A stretch of DNA of 64,000 bases. Origin: Deferribacterales bacterium Deferri_01 (lineage in GTDB: Bacteria; Chrysiogenota; Deferribacteres; Deferribacterales; Geovibrionaceae). Both the position numbers and the translations under genes were made by a program. The DNA lies in the NCBI GenBank assembly GCA_001603805.1, contig LUZY01000011.1, forward strand, positions 124,001 through 188,000, given 5' to 3'. Shown here in pieces: positions 39,388-49,687 of the stretch. The number at the start of each line of letters is the position of its first letter. Position 1 is the stretch's first letter. The notes beneath the pieces were generated by a model. That model did no database searches, was not told the origin of the DNA, and saw only the letters and a program-made list of their open reading frames with translations.

Positions 39388-41028
39388 TTATCCGTTAAGT
39401 TCTTCAAGAACACGGAGAATTTCAGGAAGAAGCTGTTTTTTCCTTGACAAGACCCCGGGAAGGTCAAAGCATCTGTCTTCTGTTTTGTTATAAGCAAGTA
39501 TTTTCTCTCCTGCTTCAAAACCAGTGGTGAGCAAAATACTTTTTTCCATTATGATATCAGTAACAAGCAGCATCCCCCAGTCAAGGCTTTTATCGGAAGT
39601 ATTTTTCTTGATAGCTTCGAGGAGAATATCTTTGACTTCATCCATTTCCTGAAGAGTGACAACTTCCACCTGACTGATGCCGACTTTTACTCCGTATTCC
39701 TCATATATTTTGAAATCGGTGTTGATGATATTCTGCGGATCCCTTGTCTTGAGACTGTCTGTGGCGGAGAAAATTTCCACTCCGTATTCTTCATAGTTCA
39801 GTCCTGCTGTCTCAGCCAGAGCTTTTACGGCTTTTCTATCCTCCTCTGTGGTGGTGGGAGATTTGAGTATTACTGTATCAGAAAGAATACCGGAGAGCAG
39901 TATGGAGGCGGTGTCTTTGTCAATTTCTGTTCCGTTTATCATGTACTGCTGATAAACCAGTGTGCATGTGCTGCCGACGGGTTTGGCAAAGAAATGTATA
40001 GGTGTCTTGGTTTTAATTGTACCGAGCCTGTGGTGATCGACTATTTCATGAATAACCGCTGTCTCTGCTCCGTCAACCGCTTGGGAGATCTCGTTATGAT
40101 CCATCAGTATAAGCCCCTTCTGGGTTTTTTTGATAAGATCAGAGCGGGTGACTATCCCTATGAGTCTGTTGTCTCTAAGCACAGGCAGACCCTTGTGGTC
40201 AATCTGGAGGAGTTTATCTTTTACCTCTTCCAGATAATCATGTTCGTCAACGGATGGAATGTCCTTTTTCATTACTGCTTTCGTGGGGATACTGAGCTGT
40301 AGACGGCGGACTGTTTCTGCTGTGTCAAGCTCAGAGATGAATACCCAGCCTTCGTATCCTGTGAAATCCAGATCCACATCATTTTCATCTTTTATTCCGG
40401 TGAGGATTATGGCAGGAAGCTGGCTTTTTACAGCGTATTCAATAATATCTCTGCGTTTTCCGACTATTAGAACTATCTCTTTGGACTGCTGTGCCTCCAT
40501 GCGTGCTTTAAAGCGTTCGTAGGGCATGGCGCCTATCATCACTGATGCTTTGAACTCTTCTTTTTTGCCGCGGACATAGCTGTAACCGCCTATGACTTTT
40601 TCAAAGTTTTCTGCTCTGAAATGGAACACAGGCTTAGTCGTTACATCTTTAGTGGCGAGAAAGTCTGAGAGTTCAAATATGCTCACTACTCCTTTAAAAA
40701 CGTTTCCGCCTTCCACAACAGGAGTAATGCGTATTTTGAGTTCATCGATATTTCTGATAACACCGAATACAGGTTCATTTTCATCGATTGCAATGACTTT
40801 TCTGGTCATAACATCGCTGACTCGTGGGTAAACATCTTTTATGAAAACCGGCGGTGTAATGCCGAATTTGTCGAAAATAAATCTTGTCTGTTTGTTCAGG
40901 TTTCCGCACCTTGCTGCTGTGTATATGTTTTCCGGGTCAAGGGCGTTTTTGAGCTTTGCGTACCCGTATGCAGAAGCTATTGAATCAGTATCGGGGTTTT
41001 TGTGTCCCACAACGTATATTTCGGGCAT
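39388..41028 (-). CDS. Manganese-dependent inorganic pyrophosphatase with CBS and DRTGG domains
   Basis: A 546-residue family II pyrophosphatase. The DHH part begins GHKNPDTDSIASA and includes the metal motif VDHHRLGT; the DHHA2 part is at the C-terminus. Between the DHH segments are a CBS domain pair interrupted by a DRTGG domain (about 70-300), the regulatory insert that binds adenine nucleotides or diadenosine polyphosphates. It hydrolyses pyrophosphate to phosphate in the cytoplasm. The presence of a polyphosphate locus a few kb away makes a joint phosphate-economy role plausible. Confidence 0.93.
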   Translation of the reverse strand: MPEIYVVGHKNPDTDSIASAYGYAKLKNALDPENIYTAARCGNLNKQTRFIFDKFGITPPVFIKDVYPRVSDVMTRKVIAIDENEPVFGVIRNIDELKIRITPVVEGGNVFKGVVSIFELSDFLATKDVTTKPVFHFRAENFEKVIGGYSYVRGKKEEFKASVMIGAMPYERFKARMEAQQSKEIVLIVGKRRDIIEYAVKSQLPAIILTGIKDENDVDLDFTGYEGWVFISELDTAETVRRLQLSIPTKAVMKKDIPSVDEHDYLEEVKDKLLQIDHKGLPVLRDNRLIGIVTRSDLIKKTQKGLILMDHNEISQAVDGAETAVIHEIVDHHRLGTIKTKTPIHFFAKPVGSTCTLVYQQYMINGTEIDKDTASILLSGILSDTVILKSPTTTEEDRKAVKALAETAGLNYEEYGVEIFSATDSLKTRDPQNIINTDFKIYEEYGVKVGISQVEVVTLQEMDEVKDILLEAIKKNTSDKSLDWGMLLVTDIIMEKSILLTTGFEAGEKILAYNKTEDRCFDLPGVLSRKKQLLPEILRVLEELNG

Positions 41029-41091: not shown

Positions 41092-41547
41092 TCAGTAAAA
41101 AATTGTTTCGAGCTTTTTTCTCCTGAAATCAAAGATCTGCTCCAGCTTTTTGCGCACGTAAAAAGCGTGTGCTATTCTGCCCAGAGGTCCGAACGGAAGT
41201 ATATAATCCACAATATCCGTCATTTCCGTCCCTTCACTTGTTTCTTTGAATATATGTTGATGATGCCAGAATTTGTACGGACCGAAGCGCTGTTCATCCA
41301 CAAAAAAGTACGGTTTTTCTGCATGGGTTATTTCGGTTATCCATTGCACGGGAAGTCCGGCGAGCGGTGTGATTGTGTATCGGATGATCATTCCTGCATA
41401 TGTTTCAGGCGGAAGCTGGGTTTTAACCTTAAATCCCAGCCAAGGTGGAGTTATTTCCTCGAGTTTTGAGGGATCACCGAAAAATTTCCACGCTTTTTCC
41501 ATATCAACAGGAAGGGTCTGCTTCCTCATGAGTGTATAGAGCTTCAA
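41092..41547 (-). CDS. SRPBCC/START-like ligand-binding protein
   Basis: A 151-residue protein of the SRPBCC (Bet v1-like) fold, with the pattern AWKFFGDPSKLEEITPPWLGF and the C-terminal helix typical of coenzyme-Q-binding or cyclase-like relatives. The ligand is unknown. The start is a TTG at 41547 because AAGAAGG lies six bases upstream and the resulting N-terminus (MKLYTLMRKQ) fits the family; the frame opens earlier, at 41568. It is a single gene between the pyrophosphatase and the SixA gene, divergent from the latter. Confidence 0.78.
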   Translation of the reverse strand: MKLYTLMRKQTLPVDMEKAWKFFGDPSKLEEITPPWLGFKVKTQLPPETYAGMIIRYTITPLAGLPVQWITEITHAEKPYFFVDEQRFGPYKFWHHQHIFKETSEGTEMTDIVDYILPFGPLGRIAHAFYVRKKLEQIFDFRRKKLETIFY

Positions 41548-41751
41548 AACACACCTTCTTTCTGACAATTTTCTGACATTTTTGCCACAACACTATTAAA
41601 CAATAACTTATTTTAAGATGTATAATCAATAGTATGGTGAAAATACGGGAAGTGCGTAAACCTGATTGATAAAACGAGGGGAATTCCTTTGATTATGGAA
41701 AAACCAGGCGGAAAATCATTATTTAATGTTAGAATAAATAAGGTGAATGTG

Positions 41752-42210
41752 ATGAGGCAGTATTTTATCCGCCATGCCCATGCGGAAGAGAGGCATGAAT
41801 GGAAAGAAGATGACATGCTCCGCCCTCTGACAGCCGCAGGCAAGTCCCGCATGGAAAATACAGTCCGGAAGTTCTTTTCAATCTATCCTCTGCCTGATCA
41901 CGTAGTATCCTCCGAAGCGGTGCGTGCCGTACAGACAGCCGAGATAGTGTGCGGTGTCACAAAGGGAGGTTTTGTAAAAGAGCCTCTTCTGAACCCGGGT
42001 GCAGATATTGCCGACTGGATTGAGGCGGTAAAAAAATTTCCCGGCAGCAGCACAGTGGCTTTTGTAGGGCATGAACCGGACATGACAGAATTTTTGTCCT
42101 TTTACATGGCGGGAAACGCAATCGAGCTTGTTCTCAAAAAAGGATCGATATGCCATCTGGAAAACAGACATCTCATAAATCTTGTTCAGCAGAAGCTGCT
42201 TATAGACTAG
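41752..42210 (+). CDS. sixA: SixA-type phosphohistidine phosphatase
   Basis: A 152-residue histidine-phosphatase superfamily protein. The catalytic RHAHAEE (His8) and second-site FVGHEPD are present, with LTAAGKSRM matching SixA. It removes phosphate from phosphohistidine on signalling proteins. The ATG at 41752 follows AAGGTGA and is preferred over the long frame to 41689. It is the first gene of a likely operon with the CHAD and ParA-like genes. SixA and CHAD genes are neighbours in many bacteria. Confidence 0.88.
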   Translation: MRQYFIRHAHAEERHEWKEDDMLRPLTAAGKSRMENTVRKFFSIYPLPDHVVSSEAVRAVQTAEIVCGVTKGGFVKEPLLNPGADIADWIEAVKKFPGSSTVAFVGHEPDMTEFLSFYMAGNAIELVLKKGSICHLENRHLINLVQQKLLID

Positions 42211-43552: not shown

Positions 43553-43570
43553 TATAAAAAGGTTGTGATA

Positions 43571-44311
43571 ATGAAGATACTGGCGGTTTACAGCATAAAA
43601 GGCGGAGTGGGCAAAACTGCGGCGGCGGTTAATCTGGCTTATTGTGCGGCGCAGAGCGGTATGAAGACGCTTCTTTGGGATTTTGATCCGCAGGCAGCCT
43701 CCACTTTTTACTTCCGGGTGAAGCCGAAACTGAATAAAAGCATGAAAAAAGCGGTGAAGGGCAAATCTGATCTGGATGCTGAGATCAAGGCAACAGACTT
43801 TGATAACCTTGACATACTCCCTGCTGATTTCTCCTGCCGCAATATGGATTTATTTCTGGATTCAGCGGATAAACCAAAAAAAGCAGTAAGAGACATGTTC
43901 AAAAGCATCAGTGGAGACTACGATATAGCTATTGCAGATGCACCTCCCGGAATAACCCTTCTTTCGGAAGGGATTATGAGCGCCGCGGATGTACTTGCCG
44001 TTCCTCTGATTCCCACAACTCTTTCCCTGCGTACATGTGAAATGCTCCTGAACTTCATGAAGGATAATAAGATAAAAGATGTGAAAACCGCACTGTTTTT
44101 CTCCATGGCAGACCGGCGTAAAAAAATACACCGTGACGTCATGGATGGGGCGGAGTTTGAAAAGGCAAAGCTCCTTGAAAACTATGTGCCTTATTCGGCG
44201 GATGTGGAAAAAATGGGGCTTCATCGTGAACCCGTGGGGGCATTCAGCCCTAAAAGCAAAGCTGCTGTAAGTTATGGCGGAATCTGGCGTGAGATTGTCA
44301 ATATTTTGTAA
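43571..44311 (+). CDS. ParA/MinD-family ATPase in the polyphosphate locus
   Basis: A 246-residue P-loop ATPase with the deviant Walker A KGGVGKT (signature Lys10, Lys15), switch I region DFDPQAAST and a Walker B-like IAIADAPPG, as in plasmid and organelle-positioning ParA proteins. Such proteins form ATP-dependent gradients on the nucleoid to position cargo. AAAAAGG precedes the ATG at 43571 by 8 bases; GTG at 43565 is an alternative. No parB or plasmid gene is nearby. Its neighbours are a CHAD protein upstream and Ppx/Ppk downstream, which suggests polyphosphate granules as cargo. Confidence 0.88.
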   Translation: MKILAVYSIKGGVGKTAAAVNLAYCAAQSGMKTLLWDFDPQAASTFYFRVKPKLNKSMKKAVKGKSDLDAEIKATDFDNLDILPADFSCRNMDLFLDSADKPKKAVRDMFKSISGDYDIAIADAPPGITLLSEGIMSAADVLAVPLIPTTLSLRTCEMLLNFMKDNKIKDVKTALFFSMADRRKKIHRDVMDGAEFEKAKLLENYVPYSADVEKMGLHREPVGAFSPKSKAAVSYGGIWREIVNIL

Positions 44312-44391: not shown

Positions 44392-45915
44392 ATGTTAGGT
44401 AATGGAATAAACATAGCCGTGGTGGATATAGGAAGCAACACTGTCCGCCTTCAGGTTTCACAGGTTAAGGATAAAAGCTACAGGGTTCTTGAGGAATACA
44501 AGGAGTCTGTGCGTCTCGGTGACGAGGTTTTTGAATACGGCATGATCACAGAGGCAGCACTTAACAGACTTTTAGTGAGCCTTAAGGAAGTGCGGGCAAT
44601 CATTGATAACTGGAAAGTTCATCAGGTGAGAGCTGTGGCTACAGCGTCCTTCAGGGGCGCATCCAACTACAGTGAAGTGATTCAAAAGGTGACGGACGTC
44701 TGCGGTTTCGGCGTTGAGATGATTAGCGGCGAGGAAGAAGCCCGCTACACATTCATAGCCGCTTCGGCAAATTTTCAGATAAGCAAGTATCATGCTCTGG
44801 TGCTTGATATAGGTGGAGGAAGTGCCGAGTATTCCGTTGTGAACAAAGGCAGACTTGAAAAGGCGCACAGTGTTGAGCTGGGCTGCAACAGGCTTACCAA
44901 AAAGTTTATCAAAAGTGACCCTGTGACAAACACTGAGTATCAGACCCTCAAAGACTTTCTGGTGAAAGAAGTCCGGAAGCTGAAGCTCCCTAGAACAATA
45001 GATCTCCTGATCTGTACCGGCGGTTCAATGGGCAACCTTTCGACTATACATTATCTTGCCTGCGGACAGAGGGCTGACAGAACAGTAAAATATCTTGAAC
45101 GCAAACATCTGAAAAAACTGATAAATGACATACGCAACAAAACCATAGCAGAACGCATACAGATTCCCGGCATGGAAGAGAAAAGGGCGGATATAATTCT
45201 TGCTGCTGCCATGCAGGTTGATGCGGTGCTTGAGGAAACAGACGGCGAAGGTCTTTACACTTTGAGCGGCGGTCTGCGAAGCGGACTTACTATCGATACT
45301 ATCAATAAAATGGGGTTTGAGCTTCCTTTTCAGTCGAATATGGATAATGTGCGCCATTCACGCTTAATTGAGATCGGCAACAAGTTTTCTTTTGAAGAAC
45401 GTCACGCAAGGCAGGTGACAAAACTTGCCCGCAAACTGTTTGACGGCCTTCACACAGAGCTTGGGCTTGATAAAGCCGACTGGGCAGTGCTGGAGGCTGC
45501 GTCCCTTCTGCACGATATAGGCAATTATATTTCCTACTCAAGCCACCATAAGCATTCCCAGTATCTTATAATGAACTCTGACCTCATGGGATACAGCCAT
45601 GACGAGATAATAACGATAGGCAACATAGCCAGATACCACCGCAAAAGCCCGCCGAGGCAATCTCACAGGTATTTCAGAATGATGACCGGAGACGGGCAGA
45701 GGAAGATAGCCGCTATGAGTGCTGTTCTTCGTGCAGCGGACGGTCTGGACAGATCCCATAAATCTCTTGTTCGTGATTTAGAAGTTCTTGTAAAACCAAA
45801 GAAAATTGAAATAAAGCTTATTTCCGACCATAATCTCTCTCTGGAGAAAAAGAAGTTTGAAATGAAAAAAGATCTTCTGGAGGAGATAAGCGGGAAGGAG
45901 CTTATTATTTTATGA
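44392..45915 (+). CDS. ppx: Ppx/GppA exopolyphosphatase with HD domain
   Basis: A 507-residue protein. The N-terminal ASKHA ATPase-like part has DIGSNTVRL (12-20), SGEEEARY with the catalytic Glu, and DIGGGSAEYS; the C-terminal part (about 320-507) is an HD domain with LLHDIGNYI and HHKHS. Ppx removes terminal phosphate from polyphosphate; GppA acts on pppGpp. The key residues are all present, so it should be active. It starts 80 bases after the ParA-like gene and overlaps the next Ppx-like gene by 4 bases (ATGA). Confidence 0.95.
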   Translation: MLGNGINIAVVDIGSNTVRLQVSQVKDKSYRVLEEYKESVRLGDEVFEYGMITEAALNRLLVSLKEVRAIIDNWKVHQVRAVATASFRGASNYSEVIQKVTDVCGFGVEMISGEEEARYTFIAASANFQISKYHALVLDIGGGSAEYSVVNKGRLEKAHSVELGCNRLTKKFIKSDPVTNTEYQTLKDFLVKEVRKLKLPRTIDLLICTGGSMGNLSTIHYLACGQRADRTVKYLERKHLKKLINDIRNKTIAERIQIPGMEEKRADIILAAAMQVDAVLEETDGEGLYTLSGGLRSGLTIDTINKMGFELPFQSNMDNVRHSRLIEIGNKFSFEERHARQVTKLARKLFDGLHTELGLDKADWAVLEAASLLHDIGNYISYSSHHKHSQYLIMNSDLMGYSHDEIITIGNIARYHRKSPPRQSHRYFRMMTGDGQRKIAAMSAVLRAADGLDRSHKSLVRDLEVLVKPKKIEIKLISDHNLSLEKKKFEMKKDLLEEISGKELIIL

Positions 45916-47429
45916 AAAACGGTCTTTTTGCCACGATCAACATAGGCGCAAGTGCGTTCAGAATGCAGATCTCCGAATTTAATGACGGGCATGAGCGGAT
46001 TATGGAGACCCTTGTGAAGCCTCTGGGTCTGGGTAAGGATACTTTTACGAAAGGCTATATAACGCTGGACAGTGTGTACAAAGCAACAAATATTCTCCAG
46101 ATGTTTCGTCATAAGCTTGATGAGTATGGCATAAAAAAGAACTATAAATGCGTCTGCACCAGCGGGGTCAGGGAAGCCAGAAACCGTTATTTTCTCATAG
46201 ATCATGTGATGAACAAAACGGGACTGAAGCTTGAAATTATAGATCCGTCAGATGAGATATACATCAAATACATAGGCGTTAAAAACGATATAAAAGGCTT
46301 TGAAAGCTATGAAAAGAAAGGCGTTCTCTTTGCTAATATATCAAGCGGAAACGTGTCTATAAACATACTCAAGGACGACACCAGCATATTTTCCGGCTCT
46401 CTTCCCTACGGCAGTCTCCGTCTTCGTCAGCTTTTCAAAGGCATACCCATACACAGCCGCTACAAGGCATACAATCAGTATGTGGAGACTATGTTCAACA
46501 CAATAAACTCCTCCCTTGGGGGAGCTTCAAAAATAAAGTATCTGGTTTGCTCCGGTAGCTCTGTAAATACTTTGCAGTTTATTTTCAACCCGAAGGTGAA
46601 CTACTTCCACCGCACAGAGCTTGAGGAGCTTTATGAAAGAGTGAAGGACAAGACCTCACAGGAGAATATGACAGCACTGGGCATAAGGATAAGTGAGGCA
46701 AAGGTGCTTGTGCCGATGCTTGAAACATACCTGCGTCTGATGCAGTTTGTCGGGACAGATAAGGTGCAGTTCAGCCGTAAATCGTTCCCGAACGTGCTTA
46801 CAAGGTATTACTCAAACAATATACGTGACAATGGCTTCCGCAACAGGCTCCGTAATACGCTCTACTATCTGGGAAGACGGTACAATTTTGACGAACCGCA
46901 CTCAAAGGTGGTGACTGATTATTCCGTGCAGATATTTGACGCATTGGGTGATCTGCACAATCTCGGAATGAACGAGCGGATGCTTCTTGAGGCGGCGGCT
47001 ATTCTGCATGACATAGGCTATTATATTGATGCCAGAATGCACCACGAGCATTCCTACTACATTGCCAAAGCCTTTGATATGCCAGGACTTGATCAGGAGC
47101 AGATAAAGATAATAGCTTTCCTTGTGCTTATGCACAGAGTCGGTACGGATGAAAGCACAGAAACCAGACTTTCTTATCTGAATATGGAAACACAGCTTAC
47201 CATCAGGAAGCTGGTGAGTATACTCCGCATTGCAGATGCCTTGGATACAAGCCATATGCAGCTTGTGGAGACTGTGGATGTGGACGTGCAGAGCAGTAAA
47301 ATAATAATCAAGGCACGCACAAGAAAACATGCCTACCTTGAGAAACTTGGATTTGACCAGAAAAAAGATATGTTTCTGGAAACATTCGGCATACCTGTCG
47401 AGCTGGAAATGAAGGTGCTTTATGAGTGA
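45912..47429 (+). CDS. Divergent Ppx/GppA-HD paralogue
   Basis: A 505-residue homologue of the preceding gene with the same two-part layout. The catalytic half is worn: INIGASAFRM replaces DIGSNTVRL, IDPSDEIYIK replaces SGEEEARYT, and NISSGNVSI replaces DIGGGSAEY, so phosphate-binding and catalytic residues are partly lost. The HD half keeps ILHDIGYYI and HHEHS. It may be a regulatory subunit for the active Ppx or a polyphosphate sensor, or have another substrate. It overlaps both neighbours (4 and 8 bases), so it is firmly in the ppx-ppk operon. Confidence 0.88.
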   Translation: MKNGLFATINIGASAFRMQISEFNDGHERIMETLVKPLGLGKDTFTKGYITLDSVYKATNILQMFRHKLDEYGIKKNYKCVCTSGVREARNRYFLIDHVMNKTGLKLEIIDPSDEIYIKYIGVKNDIKGFESYEKKGVLFANISSGNVSINILKDDTSIFSGSLPYGSLRLRQLFKGIPIHSRYKAYNQYVETMFNTINSSLGGASKIKYLVCSGSSVNTLQFIFNPKVNYFHRTELEELYERVKDKTSQENMTALGIRISEAKVLVPMLETYLRLMQFVGTDKVQFSRKSFPNVLTRYYSNNIRDNGFRNRLRNTLYYLGRRYNFDEPHSKVVTDYSVQIFDALGDLHNLGMNERMLLEAAAILHDIGYYIDARMHHEHSYYIAKAFDMPGLDQEQIKIIAFLVLMHRVGTDESTETRLSYLNMETQLTIRKLVSILRIADALDTSHMQLVETVDVDVQSSKIIIKARTRKHAYLEKLGFDQKKDMFLETFGIPVELEMKVLYE

Positions 47430-49434
47430 TTATAAATTTATTAACAGGGAGATAAGCTGGCTTCAGTTTAATGAGCGGGTTTTAAGAGAGGCTGAGGACA
47501 GCAGTGTGCCCCTCCTTGAAAAGCTGAAATTTCTGGCAATTTTCTCATCCAATCTGGATGAGTTTTTTATGATTCGTGTCGCAGGCATATATGACCAGAT
47601 AGATGCGAAATACAGCATAAAAGATGCCTCCGGACACACCCCTAAAGAGCTTCTCGGAAAGATTTCCGAAACAGCACACAGGCTTGTGAAGGATCAGCAG
47701 AAGATATTCAGAAAAACCATAAAAGAATGTGCCAAACACCATATAGTGATTCAGCCGGAGATAGACGGAGAACTTTCGGATATTGTTGACTCAATATTTA
47801 ATGACGAGATTCAGCCGTTGATCTCTCCTGTCACTCTGAGTGCTGCAAATCCTTTTCCGTTTATATATAACCTCCGTCAGTGTATTTTTGTTAAGCTGGA
47901 AAAGGGCGGAGAAACCCACTATTCGATCATTATTATTCCTGAAAATCTGCAAAGGGTGTTTAAAATCCGTCTCCACAGAACCTACTGTGTCACCAGTGAG
48001 GAGATAATAGCCCGCTCTCTGCCGCAGGTGTACCCCGGATACACCGTTGTGGACAGTTATATGCTGCGCCTTACCAGAAATGCCGACCTCACTGTTGAAG
48101 AGGACGAGGCGCAGGATCTGCTTAAGCTGATCGAGAAAAAGCTTCCTTCCCGCAAGAAGGGGAATGTTGTGAGAGTTGAGCTTGATAAAACAGCACCGGA
48201 TGAGGTGCTTAAGTTTCTTCAGGCGCATATAGGTTTTGATAATGAGGATGTGTATATCGTTGATAAACCGTTGGATCTCACGTTTCTTTTCTCCGTTGCT
48301 GACAGCAATCCGGAACTTTTATATCCCGAACACAAGCCTTTTGTACCTTACGGGCTTACCGCAGATGAAAATATATTCGACAAGCTGAAAGAGCGGGACT
48401 ATGTGTTCTACCGCCCTTACCATGATTTCGGCTTCAATTCTGCTCTGATACGCCGTGCGGCACAGGATGACAGCGTTCTTGCCATCAAAATGACCCTATA
48501 TAGAGCAAACAGGGGTTCCAGCATTGTTGAGTCTCTGGCTGAGGCAGCAAGGCGGGGAAAACAGGTCTGCGTGGTTATAGAGCTGAAGGCACGCTTTGAC
48601 GAGGAGCGTAACGTGGGCTGGGCAAAAAAGCTTGAGGATGCCGGCTGCATAGTCACATACGGGATAACAGGACTGAAGATTCACTCCAAGAACCTTTTGA
48701 TAATCAGGAAGGAGCCGCAGGGGATAGTCCGTTACAGCTACCTTTCAACAGGTAATTTTAATGAAGCCACTGCGAAAATTTATACTGATATAGACTACAT
48801 AACGGCAGATGAAAAAGTGGGGCAGGAATGCTCAAATCTCTTTAATCTTCTGATGGGCTATACCGACTATGCCGACTGGCACCGCATCAGTGTTGCGCCC
48901 ACCGGGCTTAAAAGCAAGCTTTTGTCTCTTATTGATTATGAAATAGAGAATGCTCTCGCAGGGAAAAAAGCAGAGATGATTGTTAAAATAAACTCTCTGA
49001 TAGATAAAGAACTTATTATGAAACTTCATGACGCTTCCCGTGCAGGGGTCAAGATAGAGATGATTATAAGAGGTATCTGCGGCATGACTGCGGGTGTGAA
49101 GGGGCTAACGGAGAATATCAGTATCCGCAGTATCATAGGGCGCTTCCTTGAACATCCCAGAATCATCTACTTTTACCATGGCGGCAAAAAACGTCTCTTC
49201 ATATCCACTGCGGACTGGATGGAGCGTAATATGCACTCAAGGGTTGAGCAGCTTTTTGAGATAACAGACAGCAATGCGAAAGACTTCATGATGACTATCC
49301 TTTCAAGCAACCTGAAGGACAATACTAAGGCGTGGGTTCTGGAAGGGGAGATATACAGAAAACTCAAGCCGGAAGCAGGAGAAGCCCATCACAATACACA
49401 GGAATTTTTCATAGGGAAGCAGATAGGGCATTGA
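47422..49434 (+). CDS. ppk1: Polyphosphate kinase 1
   Basis: A 670-residue Ppk1 of ordinary length. The N-terminal domain opens FINREISWLQFNERVLREAED and the catalytic phospholipase-D-like halves carry KIHSKNLLI with the phosphorylated His and MHSRVEQLFEI with the second. It reversibly transfers the gamma-phosphate of ATP onto polyphosphate at the inner membrane or cytoplasm. It is the last gene of the ppx-ppx'-ppk operon, with an 8-base overlap. Confidence 0.97.
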   Translation: MSDYKFINREISWLQFNERVLREAEDSSVPLLEKLKFLAIFSSNLDEFFMIRVAGIYDQIDAKYSIKDASGHTPKELLGKISETAHRLVKDQQKIFRKTIKECAKHHIVIQPEIDGELSDIVDSIFNDEIQPLISPVTLSAANPFPFIYNLRQCIFVKLEKGGETHYSIIIIPENLQRVFKIRLHRTYCVTSEEIIARSLPQVYPGYTVVDSYMLRLTRNADLTVEEDEAQDLLKLIEKKLPSRKKGNVVRVELDKTAPDEVLKFLQAHIGFDNEDVYIVDKPLDLTFLFSVADSNPELLYPEHKPFVPYGLTADENIFDKLKERDYVFYRPYHDFGFNSALIRRAAQDDSVLAIKMTLYRANRGSSIVESLAEAARRGKQVCVVIELKARFDEERNVGWAKKLEDAGCIVTYGITGLKIHSKNLLIIRKEPQGIVRYSYLSTGNFNEATAKIYTDIDYITADEKVGQECSNLFNLLMGYTDYADWHRISVAPTGLKSKLLSLIDYEIENALAGKKAEMIVKINSLIDKELIMKLHDASRAGVKIEMIIRGICGMTAGVKGLTENISIRSIIGRFLEHPRIIYFYHGGKKRLFISTADWMERNMHSRVEQLFEITDSNAKDFMMTILSSNLKDNTKAWVLEGEIYRKLKPEAGEAHHNTQEFFIGKQIGH

Positions 49435-49662: not shown

Positions 49663-49687
49663 AAGGGGCTTGATAACCAAGCCCCTT
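49663..49687. terminator. Bidirectional terminator before potD
   Basis: A perfect 10-bp stem, AAGGGGCTTG / CAAGCCCCTT, with a 5-base loop. On the minus strand it is followed by TTTTATTTT, so it ends the pot operon; it also lies 16 bases after the 43-residue gene. Confidence 0.85.

Follow-up and report, generated by a model that had tools for sequence, protein, structure and literature searches.

How bacteria position and inherit polyphosphate (polyP) granules is an open question. In Pseudomonas aeruginosa, AlgP spaces polyP granules on the nucleoid (PMC9239181), and a 2025 review names AlgP as the sole polyP positioning factor and no ATPase, giving the ATP dependence of positioning as unknown (PMC13052382). 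PolyP is bound by CHAD domains, which are found on granules (PMC6537752 and studies it cites). Carboxysomes are positioned by McdA–McdB, in which a stand-alone Walker A' ATPase is encoded together with a cargo-binding protein and the cargo is a cytoplasmic body. In Acidithiobacillus, the adjacency folD-ppk-parA-CHAD has been described as highly conserved; a 2024 paper describes the ParA only by its plasmid partition role (PMC10892726), and a 2019 paper, which discusses cAMP, depicts this cluster as well (PMC6416229). The ppk-parA-CHAD adjacency is therefore already known, without a positioning role.

The locus described here, which encodes a ParA/MinD-family ATPase beside a CHAD protein, shares features with each of these systems. 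It resembles McdA–McdB in its gene arrangement and predicted fold (6non, 6nop) but has a folded CHAD protein in place of McdB, polyP as its proposed cargo and only about 20% identity to McdA. The ATPase core and Arg 183 are common to Soj of the Soj/ParA–ParB–parS systems, which is among the closest solved structures; unlike Soj, the ATPase has no ParB, belongs to a separate clade, is basic rather than acidic and has the PRNVRLSEAPS segment replaced. AlgP acts on the same granules but is a DNA-binding protein resembling histone H1 and has no ATPase. The Acidithiobacillus cluster, compared by its published description, likewise has ppk1, parA and a CYTH-CHAD gene as conserved neighbors, in one genus and with no polyP role proposed for parA. 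No proposal of a polyP role for a CHAD-linked ParA was found in the literature covered, which lay largely outside subscription papers and preprints.

Gene organization of the locus

In the window (the whole 64,000-nucleotide stretch of DNA analyzed), six co-directional genes follow the order SixA-CHAD-ParA-Ppx-Ppx'-Ppk1 with gaps of 10, 18 (from the ATG), 80, −4 and −8 nt (Table 1). An earlier note on this DNA had described a ParA/MinD ATPase with a deviant Walker A motif, lying between a CHAD gene and ppx-ppx'-ppk1 and lacking a nearby parB or plasmid gene, and the description held in all its parts. The ATPase matched AAA_31 (4.6e-33) and carries KGGVGKT, the CHAD protein matched PF05235 (5.6e-54, 184 bits), two Ppx/GppA genes and Ppk1 were found in place, and neither parB nor a plasmid gene is present at the locus. 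A chromosomal Soj–ParB pair was located elsewhere in the genome (G000:C5), its Soj being 29% identical to the ATPase, which is therefore not the chromosomal partition protein. In the source genome, CHAD is represented by the single gene found at this locus. The ATPase reading frame starts at ATG 43571 and stops at 44309–44311; a GTG at 43565 could serve instead, although the ATG is preferred because the conserved start sits nine codons before the signature lysine.

Table 1. Features of the polyP gene run, in window coordinates.
Feature	Position	Strand	Remarks
SixA-like histidine phosphatase	41689..42210	+	Heads the run; gene absent from the earlier note's list
CHAD-domain protein, polyP binder, proposed adaptor, 443 aa	42221..43552	+	N-terminal domain shortened
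ParA/MinD-family ATPase, CHAD-associated clade, 246 aa	43571..44311	+	ORF, Pfam, profile, tree and structure model
Deviant Walker A KGGVGKT, residues 10–16, signature Lys10	43598..43618	+	Lys10 and Lys15 in all clade members
Basic loop, clade-specific, residues 49–74	43715..43792	+	Low model confidence at 54–65
Walker B aspartate D123	43937..43939	+	Invariant in clade
RKKIHR, residues 183–188	44117..44134	+	R183 at position of invariant Soj Arg
Clade motif PYSADVEKMG, residues 207–216	44189..44218	+	Stands in place of Soj PRNVRLSEAPS
Ppx/GppA family exopolyphosphatase	44392..45915	+
Ppx/GppA-family protein no. 2 (Ppx'), diverged	45912..47429	+
Ppk1 polyphosphate kinase	47422..49434	+	TIGR03705, 768 bits, above its cut-off
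Terminator-like hairpin downstream of ppk1	49663..49687	.	Consensus match only

Ppx' has diverged strongly (58 bits against Pfam Ppx-GppA vs 193 for the first Ppx/GppA protein) and may be non-catalytic. It is retained in every complete Deferribacterota version of the SixA-CHAD-ParA-Ppx-Ppx-Ppk1 run. On the minus strand, a CBS-DRTGG manganese-dependent pyrophosphatase (39388–41028) and a small unclassified gene (41092–41568) point away from the polyP run; both are present in two congeners and in G023, and neither was seen at other loci.

Sequence and predicted fold of the ATPase

The AlphaFold2 model of the ATPase (pLDDT 76, pTM 0.81, seven sequences) gave its best PDB matches with ParA-ATP 8ray, Helicobacter pylori Soj, SegA, McdA and also MinD, with TM values of about 0.7–0.8. 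The superfamily features are present: KGGxGK[TS] with the signature lysine, D123, the overall ParA/MinD fold (predicted) and D39, the catalytic aspartate after Walker A, which is found in all clade rows except one with an ambiguous letter. There is no N-terminal HTH, Walker A' being reached already at residue 10. The absence of an HTH and the presence of a cargo-associated neighbor are traits of cargo-positioning ParA proteins of the McdA/ParC/PpfA type. The protein scored far under the MinD cut-offs and stops at the last core helix, lacking the C-terminal membrane-targeting helix of MinD/FlhG. PF10609 (NUBPL) was matched at 36 bits against a cut-off of 27, over residues 2–138 only and ranked far below AAA_31, and the NifH and ArsA profiles fell below cut-off.

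Clade members are basic (median pI 9.2, net charge +7) whereas Soj-type proteins are acidic (pI 5.6, net charge −3). The difference lies mostly in residues 49–74, a loop with a mean net charge of +5.9 in the clade vs −2.5 in Soj. Where Soj has PRNVRLSEAPS, the clade consensus is P-Y/F-S-A-D-V-E-R/K-M-G; most basic residues of the Soj segment are missing, positions 208 and 211 being non-basic, while R183 is kept. These changes suggest a rearranged nucleic-acid- or polyP-binding face.

Pairing of CHAD and ParA across phyla

A profile of the clade was searched against two genome samples, each drawn from the phylum in which a hit had occurred: 345 genomes for a Desulfobacterota hit and 246 for an Actinomycetota hit. 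The scores fell into two groups with a clean gap, 27 clade members at 267 bits or more and all other matches at 175 bits or less. Of the 27 members, 20 have a CHAD gene immediately upstream in the same orientation (15/19 in the Desulfobacterota sample and 5/8 in the Actinomycetota sample) compared with none of the 23 next-best ParA-type hits (p = 2e-8). The arrangement is far from chance. From the CHAD stop to the ParA start, 33 pairs had a median distance of −4 nt, i.e., overlapping codons, and none exceeded 24 nt, which points to translational coupling. CHAD and ParA form a conserved pair, with the genes overlapping or close together, across at least four phyla.

Wider stretches around the pair contain Ppk1, Ppx, SixA, CYTH and NUDIX genes. 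The pair also stands on several Paracoccus plasmids, strains of P. aestuarii and P. marcusii being among the carriers; the plasmid records read CHAD-ParA-CYTH-NUDIX and, in one further case, CHAD-ParA-CYTH. As its key test, the earlier note had proposed a survey of whether CHAD-ParA-Ppk neighborhoods recur. The pair does so across four phyla or more, in most cases accompanied by Ppk1, Ppx, SixA, CYTH or NUDIX genes, and with the neighborhood conserved that test was passed convincingly.

Seven of the 27 clade members have no CHAD neighbor, one of these at a contig end, and no common alternative partner was apparent among the neighbors listed. Among clade members from Actinomycetota, L101, L102, L103 and L108 have no CHAD neighbor, with Ppk1 in all three genomes tested. 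Two genomes, G394 and G091, encode the ATPase with neither a CHAD neighbor nor CHAD elsewhere, and Ppk1 is likewise absent.

Distribution in Deferribacterota

Fifty Deferribacterota genomes were sampled, the phylum being assigned from relatives and the ATPase counted at 40% identity or more. Ten encode it, nine with CHAD directly upstream. The full order SixA-CHAD-ParA-Ppx-Ppx-Ppk1 occurs in seven genomes, including the source genome; in an eighth the contig begins inside CHAD and keeps CHAD-ParA-Ppx-Ppx and the start of Ppk1. In the tenth carrier (G008) the ATPase lies behind other genes and a CHAD fragment is found at a contig edge. CHAD is present in all ten carriers vs 13 of the other 40 genomes (p = 1e-4), so that none of the 50 has the ATPase without CHAD. 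Ppk1 is also present in all ten carriers, as well as in most of the other 40.

One Deferribacterota genus, g4, has five genomes, and in the three of them that were inspected (loci L115, L116 and L118) SixA-CHAD-Ppx is kept and the ATPase is cleanly absent. These loci are a natural ATPase deletion for comparison. As polyP genes are kept without the ATPase in this phylum, it is accessory to polyP metabolism and not a requirement.

Co-occurrence and co-inheritance

In the Desulfobacterota sample, CHAD was found in 16 of the 19 genomes with the ATPase vs 23 of the 326 without (p = 2e-14), and Ppk1 exceeded its cut-off in 14 of the 19 (plus one fragment) vs none of 20 unselected genomes lacking it; these presence counts come from draft assemblies, in which some genes may be hidden.

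In the ATPase tree, the clade stands apart from Soj-type ATPases. Its members are mostly CHAD-paired, and the scatter of the unpaired ones suggests losses or partner changes. Many groupings of the ParA tree recur in the CHAD tree, for example Paracoccus with L093 from the Desulfobacterota sample, and in both trees Actinomycetota rows fall within a Desulfobacterota group. The CHAD and ParA distance matrices were correlated (Mantel r 0.82, 0/5000 permutations), with shared species history contributing to r. The two trees point to co-inheritance of CHAD and ParA, though their agreement may stem in part from shared species history.

The CHAD partner

The closest structures to the model of the CHAD protein were those of Chlorobium CHAD, including the polyP complex 6qva. 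An additional N-terminal domain containing a DTFDW motif is found in most paired CHAD proteins, as is a short C-terminal tail, which in many cases ends in F-x-x-L-F. As strict markers of ParA pairing the two were rejected, being typical but not exclusive: the tail also occurs in three CHAD proteins without ParA, and the DTFDW domain likewise in some unpaired ones. They are therefore candidates for the interface and not proof of it. In fold, the N-terminal domain weakly resembled TTM enzymes; nevertheless, its assignment to CYTH/TTM found no Pfam match and a negative profile comparison.

ParA partners usually carry a basic N-terminal peptide (PMC12204374). The window CHAD starts with MKKR. Unlike the McdA–McdB case, no basic N-terminal ParA-activating peptide common to the paired CHAD proteins was found, the true starts being uncertain. 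Relative to its congeners L021 and L022, the window CHAD lacks about 60 residues of the DTFDW domain in frame, the rest being intact.

Proposed role and alternatives

By a little over an even chance, the gene encodes the motor of a polyP-granule positioning system with CHAD as its adaptor. The ATP-bound ParA dimer would bind the nucleoid without sequence specificity. CHAD on a polyP granule would meet the ATPase, directly or via the granule surface, and trigger hydrolysis and release. The resulting ParA gradient would separate the granules and keep them spread over the nucleoid, and polyP would be inherited by both daughters. What was observed is that the protein carries ATPase motifs and has a predicted fold like that of Soj and McdA, and that the two genes form a conserved pair which usually overlaps, is linked to Ppk1 and is co-inherited; from this we infer that CHAD and ParA make contact, that the ATPase binds the nucleoid, that granules are moved and that CHAD acts as ATPase-activating adaptor. 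The earlier note had suggested granule spacing with the CHAD protein as adaptor. Its comparative prediction was borne out by the conserved pair and by the lack of any Deferribacterota ATPase without CHAD, which fits a ParA acting on CHAD-coated polyP, while spacing, nucleoid binding and the adaptor role themselves keep the standing of a proposal. Counting against positioning are the lack of a shared basic N-terminal CHAD peptide, F-x-x-L-F tails in unpaired CHAD proteins, non-basic residues 208 and 211, and the seven of 27 members without a CHAD neighbor. A more far-reaching version is tentative at best: a phylum-spanning system of CHAD and a basic ParA-type ATPase would move and partition granules ATP-dependently, and the ATPase may touch polyP itself via its clade-specific lysine-rich loop, making granule and nucleoid competitors for the ATPase.

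Other functions are known within the ParA/MinD family, BcsQ, FleN and metal-cluster proteins being examples, so fold and operon do not prove positioning. The ATPase might act on polyP synthesis, recruiting or holding a CHAD–Ppk1 complex at a cell site or switching it on, in a manner like that proposed for BcsQ and cellulose synthase. Ppk1 adjoins CHAD in L082, L091 and L099, lies one small gene apart in L087 and L092 and comes after Ppx in Deferribacterota, and the BcsQ profile matches the ATPase weakly (1.6e-6). We nevertheless find this unlikely. CHAD, and not Ppk1, is the tightest and most constant partner, the Paracoccus plasmid pair occurs with CYTH and NUDIX but without Ppk1, and many Deferribacterota have Ppk1 without the ATPase, so that polyP synthesis does not need it. 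A polyP-binding regulator, whose loop 49–74 would bind polyP or nucleic acid and whose ATP state would report polyP or energy to CHAD, Ppx or gene expression, could account for the basic charge concentrated in that loop. A basic face would also suit plain nucleoid binding, however, the loop has low model confidence, the ATPase has no DNA-reading domain and no regulator gene is constantly nearby, which makes such a regulator quite improbable.

That a plasmid or chromosome partition gene lies by chance in a polyP locus is very improbable indeed, even though relatives occur on large plasmids and the Pfam and NCBIfam names indicate partition ATPases. No ParB adjoins the gene, CHAD takes that place even on the Paracoccus plasmids, the pairing is shared by four phyla or more, and matches in phages are remote. 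A remnant of plasmid partition was ruled out by the missing ParB, the separate Soj–ParB pair and the conserved CHAD pairing. Phage origin was rejected as well, the nearest phage ParA being 28% identical, as was a defense system, for which PADLOC gave one weak partial match (25 bits) over the nucleotide-binding motif at residues 4–39.

The positioning reading points to a specific ATPase and a specific adaptor for the polyP granule, and of the candidates to date the CHAD–ParA pair is the best one for a machine spacing the granules and sharing them out at cell division. It is probably a case of ParA/MinD positioning with a new partner, CHAD, and a new cargo, polyP; if true, it would add a cargo to that positioning family. 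The question becomes testable by deletion and imaging in culturable bacteria.

The Marinobacter nauticus plasmid pMAQU02 encodes, without CHAD, a ParA that belongs to the same wider clade at 38% identity (L134, 5995–6744). Genes of an integrating conjugative element occur in this plasmid region, phbB and other acetyl-CoA genes are close by, and the ParA possibly serves another storage granule.
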